The position numbers and the translations under genes were made by a program. This document shows, piece by piece, positions 10,862-60,978 of a stretch of DNA of 64,000 nucleotides. Source of the DNA: a virus; IMG/VR virus record IMGVR_UViG_3300018080_000118, positions 1 to 64,000 of that record; one strand, written 5' to 3'. The stretch's first letter is position 1. The number at the start of each line of letters is the position of its first letter. The notes below the pieces were generated by a model. That model saw only the letters and a list, made by a program, of their open reading frames with translations, did not search any database and was not told where the DNA came from.

Positions 10862-11237
10862 TGGTGGAGGCGGTGGGAATCGAACCCACGTCCAGAATGC
10901 ACATCCCCACCTCTTCTACAAGCTTAGCCCCCTGTTGTTCCGCTGTGGGCCGCGTATCGAGTTTCTTTCCGGCTCGCAAAGTCAGGCCATCTTCTCGGCT
11001 CTTGCTCGACCAGCTTCAAGAACCCAGTCCGGATTCGTTGCGCCGAACTGACCTCCTCCAGACAAGGGAGAACAGTCGACGGAATGGGGCTGATTAAGCC
11101 GCCATCGCAGGGGCGAAAGCCCCCATCTTTGTTGGGTTGGCAGTTGAATTTGCCTGCCACGCTTTTTTACGAGGGTGCATGACATCCTCGGCTTGCAGAG
11201 ATGACTCAGTTACACCTGTCGAACCCAGTTCGCCCCC
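10862..11237 (-). ncRNA. ssrA: transfer-messenger RNA (tmRNA)
   Basis: tmRNA rescues stalled ribosomes by acting first as alanyl-tRNA and then as a short message whose peptide marks the product for proteolysis. The 5' end reads GGGGGCGAACTGGGTTCGAC and the 3' end is TGGGTTCGATTCCCAC-CGCCTCCACCA, giving a 7-pair acceptor stem with one G-U pair and encoded CCA. The length (376 nt) is usual. A tag frame at 11153-11094 reads ANSTANPTKMGAFAPAMAA and stops at TAA; the MAA end fits the usual small hydrophobic, Ala-ended degron. The start of the tag frame is inferred by analogy. A terminator follows at 10797. Confidence 0.93.
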
Positions 11238-11292
11238 AAAGGTATTGCTTCCAGTTTAACGGCACCCCTGCCGATTATCCAGTCTCCACTGA

Positions 11293-11366
11293 TGCGCCCG
11301 GCTGGAGTCGAACCAGCAACCACCAGCTTTAGAGGCCGGCCGCTCTGCCATTAAGCGTACGGGCGC
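11293..11366 (-). tRNA. tRNA with anticodon CUA (amber suppressor)
   Basis: A full cloverleaf of 74 nt: acceptor GCGCCCG/CGGGCGC (7 perfect pairs), T8-A9, D stem CGCT/AGCG with GG in the loop, anticodon stem CCGGC/GCTGG (one G-U) around loop CTCTAAA, a 5 nt variable loop, T stem GCTGG/CCAGC with loop TTCGACT, discriminator A. With U33 in place, the anticodon is CUA (11332-11330), which reads UAG. CCA is not encoded. The amino acid is unknown; acceptor and T arm look Arg-like. It lies between the tmRNA and the genes that may need it. Confidence 0.85.
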
Positions 11367-11436
11367 AAACCCCCAGATGAATGCAGCGACACCTATCGCG
11401 AATCGGTGACCGTTAGGCTCCGGGGGGCCAGCTGGT

Positions 11437-48676: not shown

Positions 48677-48906
48677 ATCTGTTCTTCAATAGTTTCGCGG
48701 ATGAGATGGTGAAGCTTGCTAAGCTTCCTCACGGAAGCGCTGACGAAGCTTCCAAGGCGAAGACCAAGAAGAAGGAGCAACAAGACGACGAGCTTCGTCG
48801 CTGGGTCATGGCTATTAGGGACGCGGCCGAACAGAAACTGAAAGAGACCGCCTCCCCGGCTGGTCGTCGTCGCGCTATGCAGCGCAGAATGATGTGGGGT
48901 AGCTAG
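48673..48906 (+). CDS. small protein with the shared N-terminal peptide
   Basis: A 77-residue protein with ATGA coupling to the previous gene. Residues 4-15 (FFNSFADEMVKL) are the shared peptide and the rest is a Lys/Arg/Glu-rich helix. It ends in TAG, which overlaps the GTG of the portal gene. Confidence 0.68.
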   Translation: MNLFFNSFADEMVKLAKLPHGSADEASKAKTKKKEQQDDELRRWVMAIRDAAEQKLKETASPAGRRRAMQRRMMWGS

Positions 48907-50831
48907 TGTCAATACAAGGCGCAAAGTCGGCATCGAGGTTCGGGCACAAGTCCCTGATGACTTACCCGCACCCCTCCTTCGATCTCTCGTCGGCGTATAT
49001 CCCGCCGTCGATGAAGGAGCTGTACAGGTGGTGCCTCTTCCTGTACATGACGCACTCCGAGATCAAACCCATCATCAAGAAGAAGGTGGCGTACGTTCAG
49101 ACGCCCATTATCTACGACGGGGAAGATGCAGACATCAAGATCTGGAAGGATGTGCTGGAGCGCACCATCAACATCAAGCGTGTTGAGATGGGGGCGCTCA
49201 TAGACGTTGGTGTCTTCGGCGTGGCCTATCTATCCCTCTACTATCCTTTCGAGCGTTACCTCGTCTGCCCGTCGTGCGGCGAGAAGAAGTCCCTCAAGGC
49301 CCTCAAGGATTGGAAGTACGAGCACCACCAGTGGATGTCCGAGTGCCCCGAGTGCGACTACAAGGGAGAGTTCAAGTCCGAGACCAAGCACGTGAAGAAT
49401 CGGTCTCGGGTCAAGATTATCCGCTGGCGACCGATGGACATCGAGGTCGAAGCCAATCCTTGGACGGGGTACAAGCAGTACACCTATCGTGTTCCTCGTG
49501 CCCTTCGCAAGAAGGTCGAGGATCCCAACAAGAACCGGGTTCTGGTCGAGACCACGCCGGATGAGCTCCTGCTGGCGATCAAGAAGAAGCAGAACTTCCT
49601 GCTGGATTCCGAGCAGCTCTTTGTGTTCGAGGAGCTATCTCCCTCTGCCGAGGATGACAGCTTCCCGATCCCTCCGCTCCTCCACGTGTTCAAGGATTCG
49701 TGGCTGTTCCAGACGCTGCGCCGCGCCCAGGAGGCGATCAGCGTGGAGCACATCCTTCCGCTGACCGTCCTCATTCCGGCCCCGACGCAGGCTGGTGTGT
49801 CTCCCCACCAGAACTACGATCTAGGTACGTGGCAGACGCACATGAATCAGATGGTGCGTACGTGGCGTAGAGATCCCAACGCCATCTACACCGCGCCTTT
49901 CCCGGCTACAGTCGAGAACATCCGTGGAGACGCGCAGGCCCTGAACGTGTTCAGAGACATGGAGATGGTCAGGCAGCAGATCGCTGCTGGGCTGGACGTC
50001 CCCATCGAGTTCATCATGGGGAACCTGAACTGGACCGGGGCCTCCGTCTCTCTGCGTGTCCTGGAGAACCTCTTTCTGAACATGATCGAGGATCTCGAAC
50101 GCTTCGAGCAGACCTTCGTCATCCCTAAGCTGCGCCGCCATCTTCGCCTGCCGAAAATCGACATCCGCCACCAGGACTTCAAGATGGCGGACGATGCCCA
50201 GCAGAAGCAGATCGCTCTGTCTCTGCGGCAGACCAACACCATCTCCGACCGCACCACTATCGACGAGCTCGGCTTCGAGAACGAGGAAGAGGAGAAGCGC
50301 AAGAAAGTGGAGGCGGGGGAGCGCCTCAAGGAGATGCGGACTATGCAGATCCAGCAGGCGAAGATCCAGGCCGAGGTGCTGCTCATCAACACGAAAGCGC
50401 AGGTCGATGCCCAGAAGATTCAGTTCGAGGCGCAGCAGGAGATGCAGGAGACCGCACAGGCCAAGCAGCAACAGGCCCAGCAGCAGCAGTTCGAGCAGCA
50501 ACAGGTCCAGCAGCAGCAGGCTGTGGACGCGCAGCAGGCGCAGGTGGCGCAGACGGTACAGACCGCCGTCGACGCTCAGAAATCATCTGAGGGTAACGGG
50601 AAGGCCGTCCCTGGCCTCACACACCCCCAGCTTCTGGGCAACATGGTCGAGCGCTTCATGAAGGACGTTCCTGATCACATGAAGGACCAGGAGCTCATGA
50701 TGATCGAGGAGACGAACAAGCCCTTGGCCCGCGCACTGAAGCGCCGGCAGCGACTGATCGAAGCCTCGGTCAAGAGCATCGTACCGCTGCCCGAGCAGAA
50801 ACCACCTCGGAGGGAGGCCGCGACTATCTGA
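48906..50831 (+). CDS. portal protein with an inserted zinc ribbon
   Basis: The portal forms the dodecameric channel through which DNA enters and leaves the head. This 641-residue protein starts at GTG. Residues 310-420 contain the classical portal features: IEFIMGNLNWTGASVSLRVL and a long stem helix LFLNMIEDLERFEQTFVIPK. Unusually, residues 119-155 contain CPSCGEKK and CPECDYKG, a four-Cys zinc ribbon. The last 170 residues are a Gln-rich coiled region followed by LIEASVKSIVPLP. The assignment rests on this pattern and on terminase/head neighbours. Confidence 0.78.
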   Translation: MSIQGAKSASRFGHKSLMTYPHPSFDLSSAYIPPSMKELYRWCLFLYMTHSEIKPIIKKKVAYVQTPIIYDGEDADIKIWKDVLERTINIKRVEMGALIDVGVFGVAYLSLYYPFERYLVCPSCGEKKSLKALKDWKYEHHQWMSECPECDYKGEFKSETKHVKNRSRVKIIRWRPMDIEVEANPWTGYKQYTYRVPRALRKKVEDPNKNRVLVETTPDELLLAIKKKQNFLLDSEQLFVFEELSPSAEDDSFPIPPLLHVFKDSWLFQTLRRAQEAISVEHILPLTVLIPAPTQAGVSPHQNYDLGTWQTHMNQMVRTWRRDPNAIYTAPFPATVENIRGDAQALNVFRDMEMVRQQIAAGLDVPIEFIMGNLNWTGASVSLRVLENLFLNMIEDLERFEQTFVIPKLRRHLRLPKIDIRHQDFKMADDAQQKQIALSLRQTNTISDRTTIDELGFENEEEEKRKKVEAGERLKEMRTMQIQQAKIQAEVLLINTKAQVDAQKIQFEAQQEMQETAQAKQQQAQQQQFEQQQVQQQQAVDAQQAQVAQTVQTAVDAQKSSEGNGKAVPGLTHPQLLGNMVERFMKDVPDHMKDQELMMIEETNKPLARALKRRQRLIEASVKSIVPLPEQKPPRREAATI

Positions 50832-51172
50832 TGACGGCTCAACCGAAAAAGACCGGTGCCGAGATCAAGAGCCTCATCTCTCGCCTACAGCCTGCTCGTA
50901 AAACGCAGCTCCGTGTCTTTCGAGACGACGATGATGCTGCCCCAGGCTCCACCGTCAAGGTCATCCACAAGATCACCACGATCCAGCCAGATACGCGCAC
51001 CGGCGCGAAGACTTGGGAAGAGCTACACAACGACCCGAACATCGTGATCAACGCCGAGAAGGACTACATGAGCCACAAGGATGGGCTCAAGACGGTCATC
51101 CGGTACACGATCTACAAGCGGGAAGAGCCTCCACAGGACCCCGAAGATATGGCTGCCGACCTGCTCGGGTAA
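50831..51172 (+). CDS. hypothetical protein, 113 aa
   Basis: The ATG overlaps the portal stop. A basic N-terminal helix (residues 5-27) is followed by a beta part (VKVIHKITTIQPDTRTG) and NIVINAEKDYMSHKDGLK, then an acidic tail. No family is recognised; translational coupling suggests a head or neck protein. Confidence 0.55.
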   Translation: MTAQPKKTGAEIKSLISRLQPARKTQLRVFRDDDDAAPGSTVKVIHKITTIQPDTRTGAKTWEELHNDPNIVINAEKDYMSHKDGLKTVIRYTIYKREEPPQDPEDMAADLLG

Positions 51173-51218: not shown

Positions 51219-51247
51219 TTCACTTCTAGAAAACTATGTCATATAAT
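51219..51247 (+). promoter_or_regulatory. sigma70-like promoter ahead of the RNA polymerase gene
   Basis: TTCACT at 51219-51224, a 17 bp spacer and a perfect TATAAT at 51242-51247. It is the best host-type promoter in the window and precedes the zinc-ribbon gene and the RNA polymerase gene. Confidence 0.65.
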
Positions 51248-51547: not shown

Positions 51548-54500
51548 ATGTTCACAGCTACTGAAAGCTTCTCGGCTCTTCTGAACCGAGTGAAGGACCT
51601 CGTTGCCCGCACTTTTCCTGTAGAAGGCAAGAATCACACCGTCCGTGTGTCCAACCTTCGCTGGGAAAATGTCGACGCTAAGTTCTACAGCGATCCCGAT
51701 ATCCACAAGGAGTACAAGACCAAGGGTAAGACCCTGTCCGCGCGCCTCGTTGGGAATGTCAGCATCGTCGACAACAAGAGCCGAAAGGTCATCGCGCAGG
51801 AAAGCGGATACCCCCTTTCTCTCGTTCCACACATCACGAGCAAGCAAGCCTTCATCATCGGGGGCAAGGACGTCCAGGTGGTGAACCAGCTGCGCCTCAA
51901 GCCTGGCACGTACACCCGCTACATGGCCGACAACAACGTCGAGACCTTCATCAACACGCCGGGTGGCGGCTATCGGGTCCAGTTTGACCGCGAACGCAAG
52001 ATCTTCCGCGTGCGCGTCGGCCAGTCCACCTACGTCTACCTCTATCCCGTGCTGATGGGCATGGGTGTGCCTGAGGAACAGCTGCGCCGCATCTGGGGCA
52101 ACGAGATCCTCAACGTCAACCGGCAGTATAACCGGCCCGACGAGATGGCAAAGCTCTACCGCAAGTTGCGCCCGTATGCCCCGCAGCCCAAGGACAAGAC
52201 AGAGTTGGCCCAGGCTGTCATCTCGTTCTTCAAGTCGAAGCCTCTTGACCCCGACATCACCAAGCTGACCCTGGGCTCGCCCTACAAGCAGATCGAACCC
52301 AAGGTCTTGGTGGCGGCATCGGAGAAAGCCCTGAAGCTCGCGCAGGGCAAGGCGAAGGCAGACGACACGGAGAACTTGGCCTACAAGAGCATCCATTCCG
52401 TCGAGGACTTCATCCCGGAAAAGATCGAGAGAGCGGTGCCAGCCATTCGGCGCTCCATCGAGCGTGAGCTGAACAGGCGGCAGTTCATGTCCCGGAAGAA
52501 CAAGGTCATGGACGCGGTGCCTCCGTCACTCTTCACTACCCCCGTGCTCTCCTTTTTTACGCAGAGCGAGTTCACGCGGTACAGCGACCAGAACAACCCG
52601 CTGGACATGGCGTCGGTCAACGCCCTGACAACTACCTTGGGCGAGGGCGGCATCAGCTCGGTTCATGCTGTGACCGACAGGCTCCGCACCGTGCACCCAA
52701 GCCATGCAGGTGTGCTGGACCCTCTCGCCACGCCGGAAGGAACGCGTATCGGCATCACCGGCCACCTCTCCGCTGGTGCCCGAAAGATCGGCAACGATCT
52801 CGGCCTCCAGGTCATTGATCCGAAGACGGGCCGCGAGGTGACCAGGAAGATCTTCGACCTGGAAGACAAGGCGGTGGCTTTCTACGATCAGTACGACTTC
52901 CGTGGCAAGAAGCCGCGCCCGAAATCCCAGATGGTAAAGGCGCGTATCAAGGGAGAGCTGAAGGAGATCCCCTCTGGCCAGGTGGACTTCATCTTTGCCC
53001 ACCCATCTCGTTTCTTCGGCGTTGTCTCGAATGCCATCCCGTTCCTGCACACGAACAGCCCGAACCGCGCCCTCATGGCGGGCAGGCACCTGGAGCAGGC
53101 GGTCCCTCTGAAGAATCCCGACGTGCCCAGCGTGCAGGCGAAGTTCGGACGAAAAGGTTTCGAGACCACGACGGGGAAGCTGCTGGCATCCAAGTCTCCG
53201 GTCACCGGAATCGTCACGACAGTCAGAAAGAACGCCATCACGATCCGGGGAGACGATGGTAAGACCCACACCGTGAAGCTGCACGACCACTACCCGCTCA
53301 ACTCCAATGCGTTCCTGCACGAGCGGCCTATCGTGACCAAGGGCCAGCGCGTCAAGAAGGACCAGACGATCGCCGACTCTGACTTCACCCGGGATGGAGC
53401 CCTGGCGATGGGCAAGACGCTCAGAACAGCCTACATGCCGTACAAGGGCTATAACTTCGAAGACGGCGTGGTTGTCTCTGAGTCTGCTGCGAAGAAACTC
53501 ACCAGCGTGCACAAGCATGAGATCCGGCTCAACCTGGATCCCACGATCTCCGTGGGCCTCTCCAAGCTGCTGGCTCTGTTCCCGGCGTACAACGAAGGGC
53601 TGGATAGGTCCAAGTACGGGGCAAACGGTTTGGTGAAGAAGGGAACCGTTCTGCAGCCCGAGGAGCTCGTCATCCCTGCTGTCAGGAAGGTGAAGGTCCA
53701 CGAAGACTTCGACTACTCGAAACTGCACAAGGCCCTAAAGAACCAGTGGCTGGACGTCTCGATGAAGTGGGACGGGCATGGGCCAGCCGAAGTCGTCGAC
53801 GTGGTGAAGACCCGAGGATTCGTGTCGATCTACGTCAAGACTGATGAGCAGCTGGAGGTGGGGGACAAACTCTCCCATCGCGCCGGTGGCAAGGGCATTG
53901 TCACGGCCATCTTGCCGGACAACGAGATGTACCAGGACTCCAAGGGGAACGTCATCGACCTGCTCTACAACCCGGCCAGCGTGCTGGGGCGGGCGAACCC
54001 GGGCCAACTTCTCGAAGCGGCTGCCGGGAAGGTCTCCGAGAAGACGAAGACACCCTATCTGGTGGACAATTTCGACAAGCCTGGCGATGCGCTAAAAGAT
54101 GTCCAAGCAGCCATGCGGGCCGCTGGTGTCAAAGACACCGAGGAGATCTACGACCCCACCACCAACAAGAAGATCCCGAACATCAACGTCGGGAATGTGC
54201 ACTTCATCAAGCTGCGTCACCAGGTGTCCAAAAAGCTCTCTGCCCGAGGGAACGACTCCTACACCCATGACGAGACTCCCGCGAGAATCACGGGCAAGAA
54301 GGCCAACCCGCTGGCTATCGGGTCCATGGAGCTCTATTCCCTTCTGTCCGGGGGCGGCACCGCTTTTCTGCGGGACGCGTCCACGATCAAGTCCCAGAAG
54401 AATGACGAATACTGGCGAGCTGTCCAGCTTGGATTGCCGCTCCCACCAGTACGGACCCCTTTTGTGGTCGACAAGTTCACTACCTTCATGCGCGGTGCCG

Positions 54501-57500
54501 GCATCGACCTGAAGCAAGAGGGGACGAAGCTCAAGGCGCTCCCGCTCATCGACAAGGAGATCGCTATCCAGAGCAATGGCGAGATCAAGAGTCCTGGCGT
54601 TGTGAAGGCAAACGACTTGTCGCCTGAGAAGGGTGGTCTCTTCGACCGTGCAATTACTGGGGGCTATGACGGGAACTATTGGAACCATATCGAGCTGGAG
54701 AGCGAGATCCCCAACCCTCTGATGGACGACGCTATCGTCGGTGTGCTGGCACCGAGCATCAAGAAGAAGCAATTCAACCAGATCGTCAATGGCACCGTCT
54801 TCATCACGCCGGACGGTCGGCTCACCACTGAATCCAAGGGCAACAAGACGGGAGGCGCGGGACTCAAGATTCTTCTGAGCAAGATTAACGTCGATGCGGA
54901 GCTGAAGAAAGCTCGTAGAGACATCAAGAATCAGCGAGGTGCTCGGAGGAATGTCACAGCGAAAAGACTGCGGTTCCTGCGCGCACTCAAGCAGCTCGGC
55001 CTGAGTCCTGTCGAGGCCTACCTGAACAAGCACGTGCCTGTGATCCCTGCCAAGTTCCGGCCCATCTATCCAAACCCGGATGGCTCGCTCAACGTGTCGG
55101 ACCCTATTCACGGCTATCGCGAAGTCATCATGATCAACAACCAGATCAAGGACCTGAAGCGGTTCGGCGTGGACGACAAGAACCTTGCCCCTCTCCGCAC
55201 ACAGCTCTACGGGGCCGTCCGGGGTCTCGTTGGGCTACAGGAGCCGCTGACCAGGAACAAGAACTTCCGAGGCTTCCTGAGCACTATCAAGGGCAAGCAG
55301 AACAAGTTCGGTTTCTTCCAGGGGCGCGTGCTCAAGCGGCGTCAGGACCTCACCGGCCGCTCTACGATCATCCCCGATCCGAAACTCGGCATCGATCAGG
55401 TAAAGATCCCTGACGAGATGGCCTTCGTCATCTACAAGCCCTACATCATGCAGAAGCTCCGGGCTCTGGGCCACATGCCTCTGCGTGCCAGGGAGCTCAT
55501 CGAGAAGCGAGATCCCATCGCACGCTCTGCGTTGACCGAGGTCCTCAAAGAGAGGCCCGTCCTTCTGAACCGTGCACCGACGCTGCACAAGTTCGGCCTC
55601 CTCTCCTTCAAGCCTACGCTGACCTCTGGGAAGGCCATCAAGATCAATCCTCTGGTGGTCGGTGGCTTCAACGCGGACTTCGATGGCGACGCCATGCAGG
55701 TCCACGTTCCTGTGTCCGAGGAAGCTCGTCGCGAGGCGATGACCAAACTGCTGCCCAGCTCCAACCTATTCAGCCCGAGAGACGACACGCTTGTGCACGG
55801 TCCGTCGAAGGAGATGATCCTGGGCATCTACCTGATGACCACGCCGGAGGGAAAAGCTCTTCGAGCCAGGTCCGCCGCCGATGTCCTCGCCCGATACAAG
55901 TCGGGCAAGATCCAGGTCAATCAGGCCATGAAGGTAGGGGCGAAGACGATCTGTGCCGGACAGGTCATCTTCAATGAGGCGCTGCCCAAGGAAGTTCGTC
56001 CGGGCTATATCCCGATCGACAAGAAGAAGCTGATGCTCCTCCTGTCCGACCTCGCCAGGAAGAAACCACAGATCTCGGGTCAGGTCATCTCGAAGGTGAA
56101 GGATCTCGGGAACAAATACGTTACCGAGGTGGGCTTCTCTGTCGGGCTCAAGGATCTGGAGTTCCCGTACGCTGACCGAGATAAGATCCTGGCCCAGGCA
56201 GCAAAGGTGTCCAAGCGAGTAGGCTTCGCCAAGGCCTATGCAGCGGCTGGCGACAAGCTCGAAGCCCACATGAAGAAGAAGCTCGCCAAGAGCAACCGCT
56301 TCGTGGTGGGGGCCACAACGTCGGGTGCCTTCGGGAAGCCGAACCAGGTGATGCAAACGATCGCCTCTCCGGTAGCCGTGACCGATCATGAGGGAAAGGT
56401 AATCCCCATTCCCATCAAGAAGTCTCTGGCGGAGGGGCTGGACATTGGTAGTTACTGGTCGATCATCCCGGGCTCCAGAAAGGGCCTCGTGGACAAGGGC
56501 CTTTCTACGGCGGATACCGGGGCCTTTGGCAAGATGCTCATCGCAGCCACGGTGGACACCATGGTATCCATGCGTGACTGCGGAACTCGCGAAGGCATCA
56601 CGCTCCCGATCACGGACCAGGACGCCCTGGATCGTGTTGTGGCGAAGGGGGCGTACCGGGGCAAGGTCACTACTCCGGCCCTGATCCGAACACTGAAAGC
56701 TCGCGGAAAGAAGACCATCGATGTGCGGTCGCCCCTTCACTGCAAGGCGCAGCGCGGCATCTGCGCGAAGTGTTTCGGTCTTCTGGAGAATGGGCAATTC
56801 CCGTCCATCGGATACCATATTGGAACCCTCGCCGGTCAGACCATCGCCGAGCCTATGACGCAGCTCACCCTTCGAGCTTTCCATACCGGCGGTACAATCG
56901 GCGGGGGCACCGTGGGCTTTCCTCGCCTCAAGCAGATCCTGGAGATGCCTACCAACGTGCGAGGAAAGGCGACGCTGGCTAAGGTCGATGGCAAGGTCTC
57001 CAACGTCAAGAAGTCTGCCGCAGGTGGTTGGGAGGTCACGATCGACTCTATGGCCCACTTCGTGCCGCAGGAGCAGGGGCTCGGTGTGCGCATCGGAAGT
57101 CGGGTCAAGGCAGGAGACAAGATCTCGCTCGGCGGTGTGGTGAAGCCCCAGGAGTTGCTGGAGGCTACCAACGACATCCGCAAGGTGCAGGACCACATCA
57201 TCGGGGATATCAACAACGAGGTGTTTGGCCCCTCAGGTATCCGGGTCAAACGGAAGATCCTTGAGACCGCCATCCAGCCCATGACCAATAGGGCCGAAGT
57301 GACAGATCCCGGCGACGGAGACGTTGCCTTCGGGGTACACACAGGAGACGTCGTACAGCTCAACAAGCTCGACAGCATGAACAGGAAGCTAAAGGCCAAG
57401 AAGAAGAACCTCATCCAGTACATCCCAGCGCTCCTGTCCATACGGAAAGTTCCTCAGTATCACGACGACTTCATCGGGCAGCTCGTTGCCGAGAGGCCCC

Positions 57501-57784
57501 ACCGCACCCTGAAGATGGCACCCTCGCTTGCTGCGAAGTCTGACATCGGTCCTGGTGGTCATCCGATCGCGACCTATGCTTTCGGCAAGTTCTTCAACAC
57601 CAAACCAGCGCTCAACCAGAAGAGCTACGTGAAGACAGCGGAGGAGATCGTCGAAGAGCTCGACGAGCTGTCCGCTGTCGTAGAGCCGGACGCCCCCCTT
57701 GAGGCAGACGGCGCGCTGGATACCGATGTCTCAGACGCTCTCGGCGATTTGCTGACAACTCTGGGAGTGGTCAAGGAGGAGTAA
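51548..57784 (+). CDS. fused beta/beta-prime multisubunit-type RNA polymerase
   Basis: A 2078-residue single chain joining both large subunits of bacterial-type RNA polymerase. Beta-like part (about 1-1000): DQNNPLD at about 347, HPSHAGVLDPLATPEGTR, GYNFEDGVVVSE near 635, and a beta C-terminal GSMELYSLLSGGG. Beta-prime part: LNRAPTLHKFGLLSF, the catalytic NADFDGDAMQVHVP near 1375 with the three magnesium-binding Asp, and the second zinc site (MRDCGTREG plus CKAQRGICAKC near 1731). GQTIAEPMTQLTLRAFHTGG near 1770 is the trigger-loop region. The first beta-prime zinc site is missing. It is about 700 residues shorter than E. coli beta plus beta-prime. No alpha, omega or sigma gene is seen. Confidence 0.95.
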   Translation: MFTATESFSALLNRVKDLVARTFPVEGKNHTVRVSNLRWENVDAKFYSDPDIHKEYKTKGKTLSARLVGNVSIVDNKSRKVIAQESGYPLSLVPHITSKQAFIIGGKDVQVVNQLRLKPGTYTRYMADNNVETFINTPGGGYRVQFDRERKIFRVRVGQSTYVYLYPVLMGMGVPEEQLRRIWGNEILNVNRQYNRPDEMAKLYRKLRPYAPQPKDKTELAQAVISFFKSKPLDPDITKLTLGSPYKQIEPKVLVAASEKALKLAQGKAKADDTENLAYKSIHSVEDFIPEKIERAVPAIRRSIERELNRRQFMSRKNKVMDAVPPSLFTTPVLSFFTQSEFTRYSDQNNPLDMASVNALTTTLGEGGISSVHAVTDRLRTVHPSHAGVLDPLATPEGTRIGITGHLSAGARKIGNDLGLQVIDPKTGREVTRKIFDLEDKAVAFYDQYDFRGKKPRPKSQMVKARIKGELKEIPSGQVDFIFAHPSRFFGVVSNAIPFLHTNSPNRALMAGRHLEQAVPLKNPDVPSVQAKFGRKGFETTTGKLLASKSPVTGIVTTVRKNAITIRGDDGKTHTVKLHDHYPLNSNAFLHERPIVTKGQRVKKDQTIADSDFTRDGALAMGKTLRTAYMPYKGYNFEDGVVVSESAAKKLTSVHKHEIRLNLDPTISVGLSKLLALFPAYNEGLDRSKYGANGLVKKGTVLQPEELVIPAVRKVKVHEDFDYSKLHKALKNQWLDVSMKWDGHGPAEVVDVVKTRGFVSIYVKTDEQLEVGDKLSHRAGGKGIVTAILPDNEMYQDSKGNVIDLLYNPASVLGRANPGQLLEAAAGKVSEKTKTPYLVDNFDKPGDALKDVQAAMRAAGVKDTEEIYDPTTNKKIPNINVGNVHFIKLRHQVSKKLSARGNDSYTHDETPARITGKKANPLAIGSMELYSLLSGGGTAFLRDASTIKSQKNDEYWRAVQLGLPLPPVRTPFVVDKFTTFMRGAGIDLKQEGTKLKALPLIDKEIAIQSNGEIKSPGVVKANDLSPEKGGLFDRAITGGYDGNYWNHIELESEIPNPLMDDAIVGVLAPSIKKKQFNQIVNGTVFITPDGRLTTESKGNKTGGAGLKILLSKINVDAELKKARRDIKNQRGARRNVTAKRLRFLRALKQLGLSPVEAYLNKHVPVIPAKFRPIYPNPDGSLNVSDPIHGYREVIMINNQIKDLKRFGVDDKNLAPLRTQLYGAVRGLVGLQEPLTRNKNFRGFLSTIKGKQNKFGFFQGRVLKRRQDLTGRSTIIPDPKLGIDQVKIPDEMAFVIYKPYIMQKLRALGHMPLRARELIEKRDPIARSALTEVLKERPVLLNRAPTLHKFGLLSFKPTLTSGKAIKINPLVVGGFNADFDGDAMQVHVPVSEEARREAMTKLLPSSNLFSPRDDTLVHGPSKEMILGIYLMTTPEGKALRARSAADVLARYKSGKIQVNQAMKVGAKTICAGQVIFNEALPKEVRPGYIPIDKKKLMLLLSDLARKKPQISGQVISKVKDLGNKYVTEVGFSVGLKDLEFPYADRDKILAQAAKVSKRVGFAKAYAAAGDKLEAHMKKKLAKSNRFVVGATTSGAFGKPNQVMQTIASPVAVTDHEGKVIPIPIKKSLAEGLDIGSYWSIIPGSRKGLVDKGLSTADTGAFGKMLIAATVDTMVSMRDCGTREGITLPITDQDALDRVVAKGAYRGKVTTPALIRTLKARGKKTIDVRSPLHCKAQRGICAKCFGLLENGQFPSIGYHIGTLAGQTIAEPMTQLTLRAFHTGGTIGGGTVGFPRLKQILEMPTNVRGKATLAKVDGKVSNVKKSAAGGWEVTIDSMAHFVPQEQGLGVRIGSRVKAGDKISLGGVVKPQELLEATNDIRKVQDHIIGDINNEVFGPSGIRVKRKILETAIQPMTNRAEVTDPGDGDVAFGVHTGDVVQLNKLDSMNRKLKAKKKNLIQYIPALLSIRKVPQYHDDFIGQLVAERPHRTLKMAPSLAAKSDIGPGGHPIATYAFGKFFNTKPALNQKSYVKTAEEIVEELDELSAVVEPDAPLEADGALDTDVSDALGDLLTTLGVVKEE
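57753..57773. repeat. palindromic operator-like site, copy 4
   Basis: GACAACTCTGGGAGTGGTC inside the last codons of the RNA polymerase gene, 10 bp before the start of the next gene; GGAG again acts near the ribosome site. Confidence 0.55.
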
Positions 57785-59313
57785 TGCCTCAGCGCGGCGA
57801 GGCCTTTGGCCGATTCAGGACGGACGACGACACGCCCCCAATTCTTCGCGGCGGAGAGATCGTCAGCTACAACCCAGAGACGGATCTCTACACGGTCAAT
57901 GTGGACGGCTTCGGCGACATCGACTCCATGCGCGCCGTCAAGTACGGGGTGTACCGGCCCTACCCTGAAGAGACCCGAGTCATTTGCGTGTGCATGCGTG
58001 GGGTCTATTGGTCCATTATCGGCGGTCTTCCCAAATGGCAGAAGCCCGAGGATCCCCCCAAGTCACCAGCAGACACCATTGCTGCGCAAGACAAGGAGCT
58101 TCGGCGCGCCACAGCAGACAAGTATCAGGTCTTCGCCGCCAGCGCCCGGAAGCTTGACGAGGAGCTGCACTACGAAGGTGACTCGGTCCTCGACAACAAC
58201 AAGGGCAGCTTCATCAAGATCCTGGAGAGCGGCGATATCTGGGGCCTTGCCTCCTACGCCTGCTTCTTTCTTCTCAGTAAGGTGAAGAACGTCTTCATCG
58301 CCAGGGCACGGGACGCCCTCATCAGCTTCGCGGGATTCATCTTCAATGTGGAGACGGACACCAGCGTCAAGCAGGCAACGGCAAAGCTCGATGTGACAGG
58401 CGATCAGAAGGAGGAGTCTGATCCCGACTTCTCTGTGCGTGCGGGGTATCTTGGCGGCCAGGATCTCTTCGAGCAGAAGATGTCTACTGCCCCATCCCAG
58501 ATGCCAGAGCTGCTCTTGCCCACCACTAACGTGGCAGGAGGTGTTGGTGACGTTAGTTCTCTGGACGCTCTCTCCACGGAAACACCCTCGGTATCTTCCT
58601 CGATGGCTGACGCCTCGGGGACCCCTGTAGCCACCAAGGACGGCCGTGTTCTCTGGACGCTGCTCGGGGATCACACGCTGCTGGAGGTAGACAATGCGTC
58701 GGAGGAGGTCAGACTTTCTAGGGTGAGCGCACAGAGAAACGCCCGAACAGGCGCTCCGCGCAACACCGAGAAAGACACCAAGCAAGTTCGCCTTAACGGC
58801 AGCGAGCTCGCCCTCCAGTGGAAAGACCGCTGGGTCTCGTTGAACGACAGTCGAGTGTCTGTGTCCTACGGGGACAACTACTTCTCCGTGGACGACAAGA
58901 AGCTTTCGATGGTCTTCGGCGAGAATTTTATCATTGTGAACAAGAACGGCGTTCAGATAAAAGGATACCTGGAATTGGTTGGTGGCAGCATCAATCTTGT
59001 TGACGAAACCGTGGGCGCGGCGTATCGCCCCGAGACCGGCGGCGTGGCTGCGGAAGGCATCGCGAACATGCAGTTCAGCAGCCTCCCGCTGCCCAAGCTG
59101 GATTTGACGATGAATCTGACAGTGAACAAGCTGGCCCTGGTGAACGAGGTCTTCCTGCCCGCGTACGACCAGGACATGCTGGAGCTGCAGAAGCACTCGC
59201 ATCCTCTGGACCCGAACAAGACGACCGCGCTGCCCGCCCCGGATCTGGCGAAGAACCTCGACCAGCCAACCAAACAGTCCCAGAAATCGGCCCTAACCTC
59301 AAACGTAGTCTAG
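57784..59313 (+). CDS. baseplate spike-like protein (gp5/V-like OB fold, tentative)
   Basis: A 509-residue protein starting one base before the RNAP stop ends (TAATG). Residues 18-85 (GGEIVSYNPETDLYTVNVDG ... VICVCMRGVYWSIIGGLP) look like the small OB-fold domain of baseplate spike proteins. Residues 300-400 contain short regular strands with Asp/Gly turns (SVSYGDNYFSVDDKKLSMVF), as in the beta-helix of a spike. The C terminus is Pro/Lys-rich and disordered. Spikes pierce the outer barrier in contractile injection. It ends in TAG. No lysozyme domain is seen. Confidence 0.45.
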   Translation: MPQRGEAFGRFRTDDDTPPILRGGEIVSYNPETDLYTVNVDGFGDIDSMRAVKYGVYRPYPEETRVICVCMRGVYWSIIGGLPKWQKPEDPPKSPADTIAAQDKELRRATADKYQVFAASARKLDEELHYEGDSVLDNNKGSFIKILESGDIWGLASYACFFLLSKVKNVFIARARDALISFAGFIFNVETDTSVKQATAKLDVTGDQKEESDPDFSVRAGYLGGQDLFEQKMSTAPSQMPELLLPTTNVAGGVGDVSSLDALSTETPSVSSSMADASGTPVATKDGRVLWTLLGDHTLLEVDNASEEVRLSRVSAQRNARTGAPRNTEKDTKQVRLNGSELALQWKDRWVSLNDSRVSVSYGDNYFSVDDKKLSMVFGENFIIVNKNGVQIKGYLELVGGSINLVDETVGAAYRPETGGVAAEGIANMQFSSLPLPKLDLTMNLTVNKLALVNEVFLPAYDQDMLELQKHSHPLDPNKTTALPAPDLAKNLDQPTKQSQKSALTSNVV

Positions 59314-59322
59314 GAGTGAACC

Positions 59323-60978
59323 ATGGAGCCTCTCTTTCTGACCCCGACGGACAGCTTCGAGAAGGAAGCGAACATCAAGCTGGAGCGGGACACCAAGCAG
59401 TGGCCGGAGAACATTACGGCCTTCCTGCACCAGGCTTATCCGTGGATCACCGATGCGAAGATCCAGGTGAACTTCAATCGCGTCGACGACGAGGAGGGCG
59501 CGGGTGTGGGGCAGGTGCAGCTCGACGACAAGGCCTCCATCCCGATCGTTATCGAGAACTTCAAGCTGCAGCCTCTCGATGTCTTCTGGGCAGGTGGCAA
59601 GCTGCAGCCTCTCACGAAGCAGGCCCTGCTTTCCGTTCTCGAAGGGACAGAGCTCGGCCGGCCAATCGCCCCTCGGAAGAGCGGCGCTGGCGATATGGCC
59701 CTTCTGTCGCGGACCCAGGTCCCGTACGACGGCCGCTACGTCTATGCGCATCAGCTGGACCTTTCCAAGGATGACATCTTCAAGGCAGCGCAAGAAGCCT
59801 TCGGCTACGCCGATCTTGCCACGGCGCTCAACACCAACCCCATCTTCAAGGAGGTCCTCACGGACTGGATGAAGACGGCGGGTGTGTCCAAGATCGCTGA
59901 GGCCAAGGCCCCTTCCTCGAATGCCGGGACTCACATCAGCATGACTCCTGGTGAGAAGATCCAGGAGAAGAAGGTCGAGGATCACAAGGAAGGCGAGAAC
60001 CACCGGCCCAAGAAAGAGAATCTCATCGAGAAGGAGACCCATCATCCTGGCGTCGTCAAGAAGGCCGGGGTCTTCGATCTCCCCATGGGGATGCAGAAGG
60101 TCGCGTGCATCGTGGCCAACCACATCGTCTCACTAGACGGCCACATCAAGGAAGACCAGATGGCCGCTTTCGAGCTTTCTGGTGATCGGTACTACTACGG
60201 CGCGAACTTCGTCGGCTACCGCAACAAGGGGCTGGAAAAGATCGCGGCCTTCGGCACGAATCGGGTCCAGGGCTGGGGAGCGTTCGTCCTCCAGACCGCC
60301 GATCCCACAGAGACTATCGCGACGGAACCTCTCAAGGTTCTTTTCCGCGAGCACACCGCTGAGGGTTTCGACAAGATTGCCGTGGAGACCATCGCCGGTC
60401 GGCGCGATCTCTTCATCTCGGAGGACGTCAAGAACTGGGCCGAGATCGATGGCGATCTCCACCTGAGCAGCAAGTGGACCTTCAAGCCGTGCGGCAAGAT
60501 GGAGAAGGTCTCGGGCTACATGCCCGTGTCGCCCACGGGCGCTGCTGTCCTGGAGAAATTCGCGGAGTGGCTGTCGCAGCCCCAGGAGCAGACGCCAGAG
60601 ACGACCAGTGTCGCGCCGAAGAATCTCTTCAAGGAGGCGGCCGCCATCCAGCCTGCCTCCATGTGGTTCCCGTTGTCCAACGCCCAGGGCACCAAGCTGA
60701 CGAAGGTCGCCGTGGACGTCAGCACCAACGAAGCCAAGAAGACGGTCGACACCCTACTCGGCCTCAACTTCATCACTCCGGAGAACTCCTACAAGTTCGC
60801 GGAGCAGCTGGAGAAAATCTCCGAAGCGAAGGAGGCTTGTGCAAAACTTCTCCTCGCTTCTCGTCTCGGTCTGCCGCTGCGCCACGCGCCGCTCAAGACC
60901 GCCATGTTCGCGCTCGACGCAGCTGAGCTGGATCTCGCCCAGTTCAACAATGTAGTGAGTGGATCTGATCAGCACTAA
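59323..60978 (+). CDS. virion-associated protein with repeated (K/R)IA segments
   Basis: A 551-residue protein with the site GGAGTGAACC. N-terminal 150 residues are mixed, residues 180-240 are Lys/Glu/His-rich and probably disordered, and residues 245-420 form a beta-rich domain (ANHIVSLDGHIKEDQ, DRYYYGANFVGY). Short patterns LEKIAAF, FDKIAVE and LTKVAVD recur. Not a family I know. It lies between the spike-like gene and a cysteine protease, in a coupled operon. Confidence 0.55.
   Translation: MEPLFLTPTDSFEKEANIKLERDTKQWPENITAFLHQAYPWITDAKIQVNFNRVDDEEGAGVGQVQLDDKASIPIVIENFKLQPLDVFWAGGKLQPLTKQALLSVLEGTELGRPIAPRKSGAGDMALLSRTQVPYDGRYVYAHQLDLSKDDIFKAAQEAFGYADLATALNTNPIFKEVLTDWMKTAGVSKIAEAKAPSSNAGTHISMTPGEKIQEKKVEDHKEGENHRPKKENLIEKETHHPGVVKKAGVFDLPMGMQKVACIVANHIVSLDGHIKEDQMAAFELSGDRYYYGANFVGYRNKGLEKIAAFGTNRVQGWGAFVLQTADPTETIATEPLKVLFREHTAEGFDKIAVETIAGRRDLFISEDVKNWAEIDGDLHLSSKWTFKPCGKMEKVSGYMPVSPTGAAVLEKFAEWLSQPQEQTPETTSVAPKNLFKEAAAIQPASMWFPLSNAQGTKLTKVAVDVSTNEAKKTVDTLLGLNFITPENSYKFAEQLEKISEAKEACAKLLLASRLGLPLRHAPLKTAMFALDAAELDLAQFNNVVSGSDQH

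Follow-up and report, generated by a model that had tools for sequence, protein, structure and literature searches.

The alpha subunit is regarded as required for the assembly of bacterial RNA polymerase (RNAP). To our knowledge, the multisubunit RNAPs that have been described in virions to date come without a recognizable sigma factor. In the phiKZ/AR9-type jumbo phages a virion form of the RNAP is injected for early transcription (PMC7598289, PMC13282480). Gp96 of phage P23-45, a single-subunit two-barrel RNAP, is also found in the virion. A report published in 2020 introduced the multi-subunit RNAP-encoding Caudovirales (mReC), tailed-phage contigs of IMG/VR with a near-cellular RNAP (PMC7481178). 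Here we analyse a stretch of 64,000 nucleotides (the window), which is the first part of the 135,946-base IMG/VR virus record IMGVR_UViG_3300018080_000118 (G000 in our set). The original prediction had placed a near-complete, single-chain bacterial-type RNAP with beta fused to beta-prime at positions 51,548-57,784. We propose, with a probability of roughly two in three, that this gene encodes a virion-packaged, alpha- and omega-free, single-chain, sigma-dependent polymerase for early transcription, of which the packaging and the early use are what we infer.

The frame lies on the plus strand, starts with ATG, ends with TAA and encodes 2078 amino acids without any internal stop. Pfam domains follow each other in the order beta to beta-prime (Rpb2_6, 4e-43; Rpb1_2, 4e-28; Rpb1_5, 1e-24; also Rpb2_3, Rpb1_3 and Rpb1_1), and the alignment with E. 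coli beta plus beta-prime is colinear along the entire length. With phmmer, the beta-prime subunit of C. difficile (7l7b_D) was matched at E = 7e-112. The alignment assigns residues 1-990 (51,548-54,517) to beta, with the NFED and GDK...GGKG active-site motifs, and residues 1007-2078 (54,566-57,781) to beta-prime. Between them about 20 residues (approximately 985-1007; 54,500-54,568) bridge the end of E. coli beta and the start of beta-prime directly, and every sampled member of the family described below aligns at this junction. In the beta-prime part, the catalytic NADFDGD motif was located at residues 1375-1381 (55,670-55,690), the second zinc site at Cys 1678/1732/1739/1742 (56,579-56,773) and the trigger-loop helix EPMTQLTLRAFH at 56,852-56,899, all on the plus strand. 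Of 30 aligned family members, all 30 have the NADFDGD aspartates and both lysines of the GDK region, 29 have the trigger-loop histidine and 25, the window protein among them, have the second zinc site. The first beta-prime zinc finger (C70/72/85/88 in E. coli) is deleted near residue 1040. The absence of this finger and of the large inserts of the E. coli subunits accounts for a length 671 amino acids below that of the E. coli pair. The earlier claims of an uninterrupted chain with the main motifs, of NADFDGD and a second zinc site, of a missing first finger and of a deficit of about 700 residues were thus borne out. The domain series, the NADFDGD and GDK-lysine motifs and the ease of alignment with cellular enzymes identify the chain as a multisubunit-class (bacterial-type) RNAP.

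Structure prediction with AlphaFold2 was performed on two overlapping parts of the chain, folded separately. The model of residues 1-1100 (mean predicted local distance difference test score, pLDDT, 85) matches bacterial beta with a Foldseek E near 1e-70, while that of residues 880-2078 (mean pLDDT 82) matches bacterial beta-prime with a VIA Z of up to 29.6 over 958 residues. Residues H526, R529 and S531 of the E. coli rifampicin pocket are V, L and T in the window chain, from which insensitivity to rifampicin is predicted.

Relatives were collected by scanning IMG/VR with an alignment-based query, and removal of duplicates left 120 distinct loci. A complete single-chain copy was found in 86 of them, comprising 75 of ordinary length (median 2076 amino acids, range 1859-2189) and 11 longer ones, ten with intein-like inserts and one with a long N-terminal extension. 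The remaining loci consist of two single chains cut at a contig end, 21 split, ten truncated and one frame-broken copy. The one-chain form is the commonest arrangement in a large phage family; the predicted one-chain polymerase is therefore real, although it is not a singleton. The original prediction had also considered that an internal stop or an assembly error might conceal two separate genes, and neither was found, as the frame is open and the same fusion recurs in the 86 complete loci. Codon-position GC is alike upstream of, over and downstream of the beta/beta-prime junction, which together with the fused loci elsewhere indicates that the fusion is neither chance nor chimera.

All 21 split relatives are divided at one site, residues 1463-1471, past the beta-prime active-site barrel; the corresponding positions of the window chain (55,934-55,960, plus strand, by alignment) are undivided. 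The split arrangement can be explained by just one change, and the tree does not fix the one-chain or the two-chain form as ancestral. The polymerase of Salmonella phage Arash, like that of Vibrio phage D69, occupies two genes with other genes in between. By alignment, Arash gp206 comprises beta together with the N-terminal portion of beta-prime, the remainder of beta-prime being gp216, whereas the two were named beta and beta-prime by the authors of the Arash paper (PMC10585845). Spliced introns were rejected at the split loci examined, since genes intervene between the halves, and these lie on both strands in Arash. Intein-like inserts of ~340-530 amino acids were noted in the polymerase frames of ten loci (L054, L060, L071, L075, L117, L126, L129, L141, L154 and L173). 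They mostly start with Cys and end with His/Gly-Asn ahead of Ser, Thr or Cys, and they sit in the most conserved active-site motifs (TPEG, GDK, NADFDGD and the trigger loop), some chains carrying two. Another single-chain member (L098, 3802-10,266) is located on a contig binned to a Deltaproteobacteria metagenome-assembled genome (MAG), which may point, weakly, to a host or else reflect an error of binning.

The tree was calculated with IQ-TREE (LG+C20 PMSF) from 50 taxa and 1471 columns, including 14 bacteria and 4 archaea. The outgroup consists of the four archaea, which belong to the same phylum as a Woesearchaeota bin, and statements on branching depth are accordingly made with caution. 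Bacteria are monophyletic (100/100), the phage family (100/100) falls outside them and the split forms make up a single clade (100/100). Sampled bacteria are 25-27% identical to the window protein and at least 55% identical to E. coli, while family members share 29-66% with the window protein. The recent host gene within a bacterial clade, which the original prediction had kept in mind, is not what the tree presents. Together with the portal and capsid genes in the window's phage, it points to a tailed-phage RNAP clade separate from cellular RNAPs. That the chain is an inactive or structural relic, a recent capture of host rpoB-rpoC or an assembly chimera is highly improbable. Nothing was found in support, and the 86 complete single-chain loci on other contigs, the invariant active-site Asp and Lys (30/30) and the equidistance of the bacteria from a family outside their clade all speak against it; chimera and recent capture we consider refuted by the other fused loci, the tree position and this equidistance.

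Two apparent cases of phage RNAPs in two genes, Staphylococcus phage SA 1306 Kay and Enterococcus phage Efs 1-1-1, were set aside. Both cluster with B. subtilis inside Bacteria and were therefore handled as host DNA; for Kay, the tblastn span, identity and score equal those of an S. aureus record. Three phage-labelled records with ordinary bacterial rpoB-rpoC, L004 (OR844998), L005 (OR846602) and L094 (CAKLQH020000005), look like mislabelled host DNA. A different type of phage RNAP was observed in Cobetia phage Carin-5 (L006, 4541-11,366) and Yersinia phage GN1 (L007), with separate genes in the order beta-prime then beta and with the first zinc finger retained; the Carin-5 pair lies directly 3' of an annotated sigma factor. 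These two form a long branch beside the family, and their placement was not relied on. A compact RNAP-like protein, single-chain and about 1020-1060 amino acids long, is encoded on bacterial MAG contigs from Armatimonadota, Poribacteria, Hydrogenedentota and other groups, e.g., L104 (9188-12,304), L105 (9134-12,319), L107 (2432-5497), L108 (9422-12,487) and L110 (9026-12,145), as well as L102, L103, L106 and L109. It carries the GDK motif of beta and the NADFDGD motif of beta-prime, lacks a recognizable trigger-loop motif and coexists with a normal rpoB in the three genomes checked.

Alpha (PF01000) and omega (PF01192) were found in none of 32 related genomes, the window's record included, with positive controls, most of these long records being uncultured contigs of unknown completeness. 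The original prediction had seen no alpha, omega or sigma homologue. This stands for alpha and omega, and for sigma within the window, but two sigma-70-family genes are present elsewhere in the record. One, at record positions 123,339-124,040 on the plus strand, encodes a divergent factor of 233 amino acids recognized by a family profile and by its similarity to Arash gp10 (26% identity, E = 2e-12), of which it is, on sequence grounds, the ortholog. Similar proteins occur in most relatives examined. The other (82,868-83,845, minus strand) encodes 325 amino acids with Pfam sigma regions 2 and 4 above cut-off and resembles Arash gp196; strong homologues of it are limited to some relatives. A profile of 20 proteins of the 233-residue family matches the solved structures of RpoS and SigA along regions 2-4 (best match RpoS 7vf9_F, positions 20-244, E = 1.8e-22), and Sigma70_r3 was found in 20 of 20 members, the window phage's protein taken alone being slightly below the Pfam cut-off. 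Used as a query against 50,697 phage records at E = 1e-3, the 233-residue factor retrieves only Arash and the Vibrio D69 group, while Arash gp10 adds weak matches to Synechococcus phage sigma factors.

Each of the 32 long family records has, in addition to its polymerase, a match to the sigma profile, and in 31 this match reaches 1e-43 or better, although 20 of the 32 records had contributed rows to the profile and therefore only the remaining strong hits are independent. This dependence weighs against a sigma-dependent polymerase, as does record G018, whose sole match is weak and located at the other sigma gene. On the polymerase side, the beta-prime clamp helices (the main sigma dock) and a flap helix are still recognizable, while nearly all family members carry other residues in place of the E. 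coli sigma contacts R275, E295 and R297 of the clamp helices. Such replacement is compatible with a dedicated sigma and speaks against the use of host sigma-70. It could also mean that little sigma is bound, which counts on the opposite side, as does the fact that the pairing of sigma and polymerase is drawn from co-occurrence and similarity.

The same evidence bears on the possibility that the core borrows host alpha and omega or host sigma-70, and that the phage sigma factors act on the host polymerase. Retargeting of host RNAP by phage sigma factors is common, and the persistence of the clamp and flap helices would suit a bacterial factor. Such retargeting is stated for other jumbo phages (PMC7598289). 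Nevertheless, we regard this explanation as quite unlikely given the replaced contact residues, the occurrence of the 233-residue family alongside the polymerase in 31 of 32 genomes as well as in Arash virions, and the covalent chain, which should require no alpha platform.

The evidence for packaging comes from Arash, the only family member found to have particle proteomics. Among 116 virion proteins, gp206 has the most spectra (3516), compared with 1210 for gp216, 467 for the sigma gp10, 877 for the portal gp204 and 1333 for the capsid protein (PMC10585845). Expressed per residue, a crude measure as such counts saturate, the values are 2.31 for gp206, 2.00 for gp216, 2.00 for gp10, 1.51 for the portal and 4.34 for the capsid protein. 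These counts are compatible with a packaged core and sigma. The second sigma, gp196, is not named in the text or table of the proteomics paper (PMC10585845). The gp206 gene adjoins that of the portal gp204. A homologous portal gene lies upstream of the window polymerase (48,906-50,831, plus strand, start at 48,906 or 48,957), in agreement with the predicted closeness of polymerase and portal, and a portal homologue was found upstream in 36 of 48 testable loci, a count sensitive to BLAST sensitivity and to the flank length at hand. The suggestion that the polymerase may be carried in the virion is plausible, because its homologues in Arash, gp206 and gp216, rank among the major proteins of the virion and gp206 adjoins the homologous portal.

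Three further points tell against the proposed packaged polymerase. The authors of the Arash study stated that abundant infection proteins may be carry-over (PMC10585845); Arash is a member of the split clade and not of the one-chain form; and the proteomic data are those of Arash, so that packaging in the window phage's own virion is a deduction from homologues. An active polymerase with its own sigma, made after infection for middle or late genes and present in Arash particles by carry-over, would be consistent with the many non-structural enzymes in the Arash protein list, and the single polymerase gene of the record must also perform any later transcription by a phage polymerase. We hold this alternative to be unlikely, as gp206 is the most detected of the 116 proteins and exceeds the portal per residue, the polymerase gene stands beside the portal in most loci, and gp196 is unnamed in the virion table.

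Taken together, the preferred reading, a packaged sigma-dependent polymerase, can be put as a series of steps. One polypeptide would fold as a complete catalytic core, as backed by the alignments and the models. The covalent beta/beta-prime junction may replace the assembly role of bacterial alpha and omega, which may be dispensable because neither was found in the 32 phages and because the phiKZ-type RNAP offers a precedent (PMC7598289). The 233-residue sigma, judging from co-occurrence and similarity, would recognize promoters, and core and sigma, by homology with Arash, would be packaged in the particle and injected with the DNA. Early phage genes could then be transcribed independently of host RNAP. 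More speculatively, the 325-residue sigma, made later, may redirect the same polymerase. Whether a large phage lineage packages a complete bacterial-type holoenzyme, i.e., an alpha/omega-free single-chain core with its own co-inherited sigma-70-family factor, we judge to be evenly balanced. If it does, early transcription would be sigma-dependent yet independent of the host polymerase, and a virion-carried sigma-dependent polymerase would amount to a new early-transcription strategy. A one-chain core that does without alpha, omega and the first zinc finger and is sigma-dependent would rank with the simplest known versions of the cellular enzyme and be handy for study. The family is also relevant to the question of whether phage RNAP split from the cellular line ahead of the divergence of the bacterial phyla.

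Regarding the neighbourhood, a gene of 113 amino acids, assigned by position only (50,831-51,172, plus strand), lies between portal and polymerase; it is unmatched by the Arash gene in the equivalent place and has a weak match in L009. The gap ahead of the polymerase gene contains a promoter-like site, TTCACT-17-TATAAT (51,219-51,247, plus strand), a consensus match from a scan giving 7 sites against 4.1 ± 1.6 expected, barely above chance. Immediately after the polymerase follows a gene of 509 amino acids (57,784-59,313, plus strand), the spike of the original prediction, which has no family match; in L009, L010 and L051, too, a homologue comes after the polymerase. For the next gene, of 551 amino acids (59,323-60,978, plus strand), 68 of 100 testable loci contain a homologue downstream of the polymerase. 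The capsid gene at record positions 71,331-72,524 is homologous to Arash gp226, whereas PF07068 (Gp23-type capsid) gave no match in the 32 records but its control also matched nowhere. With portal, capsid protein, polymerase or sigma as the query, the isolated phages retrieved are in each case Arash and the Vibrio D69 group. The portal has four Cys arranged as CxxC...CxxC, invariant also in Arash and Vibrio phage D69, a possible zinc ribbon within a portal. Portal homologues of L057, L060 and L119 are 1108-1638 amino acids long against about 650 usually, and may therefore carry inteins or fusions. Elsewhere, a predicted tmRNA adjoins a tRNA with the CUA (amber) anticodon at window positions 10,862-11,367; general recoding of TAG was rejected, as TAG terminates 43 of 129 called genes.

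How does this polymerase compare with the known systems? The Helicobacter and Wolbachia fusions likewise join the beta C-terminus to the beta-prime N-terminus, but they are cellular proteobacterial proteins averaging 2,876 amino acids (PMC6403173) compared with 2078 in the phage. The window chain is not of this kind, because it falls outside the 14 sampled bacteria, Proteobacteria included, Helicobacter and Wolbachia themselves being unsampled. Crass-like phi14:2 gp66, P23-45 gp64/gp96 and YonO also combine both active-site barrels in one chain. They differ in having little sequence similarity to cellular RNAP beyond the active-site motif (PMC10770324, PMC7481178), whereas the window chain is readily alignable with it over its full length and hence not of their type. 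The phiKZ/AR9-type RNAPs share the multisubunit class without alpha or omega, yet they are strongly diverged, consist of at least four polypeptides, lack a recognizable sigma and occur as two polymerases in each phage (PMC7598289, PMC13282480). The window polymerase is set apart from them by its one chain, by the single Rpb2_6 match in the entire record and by the sigma genes.

The mReC stand closer. Like the window family, they come from tailed-phage contigs of IMG/VR and their RNAP branches outside Bacteria. They differ in that beta and beta-prime subunits are described, the main text mentioning a fusion for crAss-like phages only, and it describes no sigma partner or virion location for them (PMC7481178). 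Judged from the published description of the mReC, of which 97 sequences are known, the window family is very probably the same lineage, and a phage RNAP of the multisubunit type, probably of this lineage, is an already known kind. In the open literature searched, subscription papers and preprints being outside its scope, the one-chain organisation, the dedicated sigma and the inteins of the lineage were undescribed, and their novelty is thus provisional. Closest of all are Arash gp206 and gp216 and the polymerases of Vibrio phages D69, D148 and D181, which belong to the same tree family (100/100) and share the junction and the loss of the first zinc finger, while their phages have in common with the window phage the portal upstream, the sigma orthologous to gp10 and the capsid protein. 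They differ in having two genes and only 29-30% identity to the window chain, and these genes are annotated as ordinary beta, beta-prime or hypothetical proteins. The proposed strategy can be tested now, because Arash and the phages of the Vibrio D69 group have been isolated.

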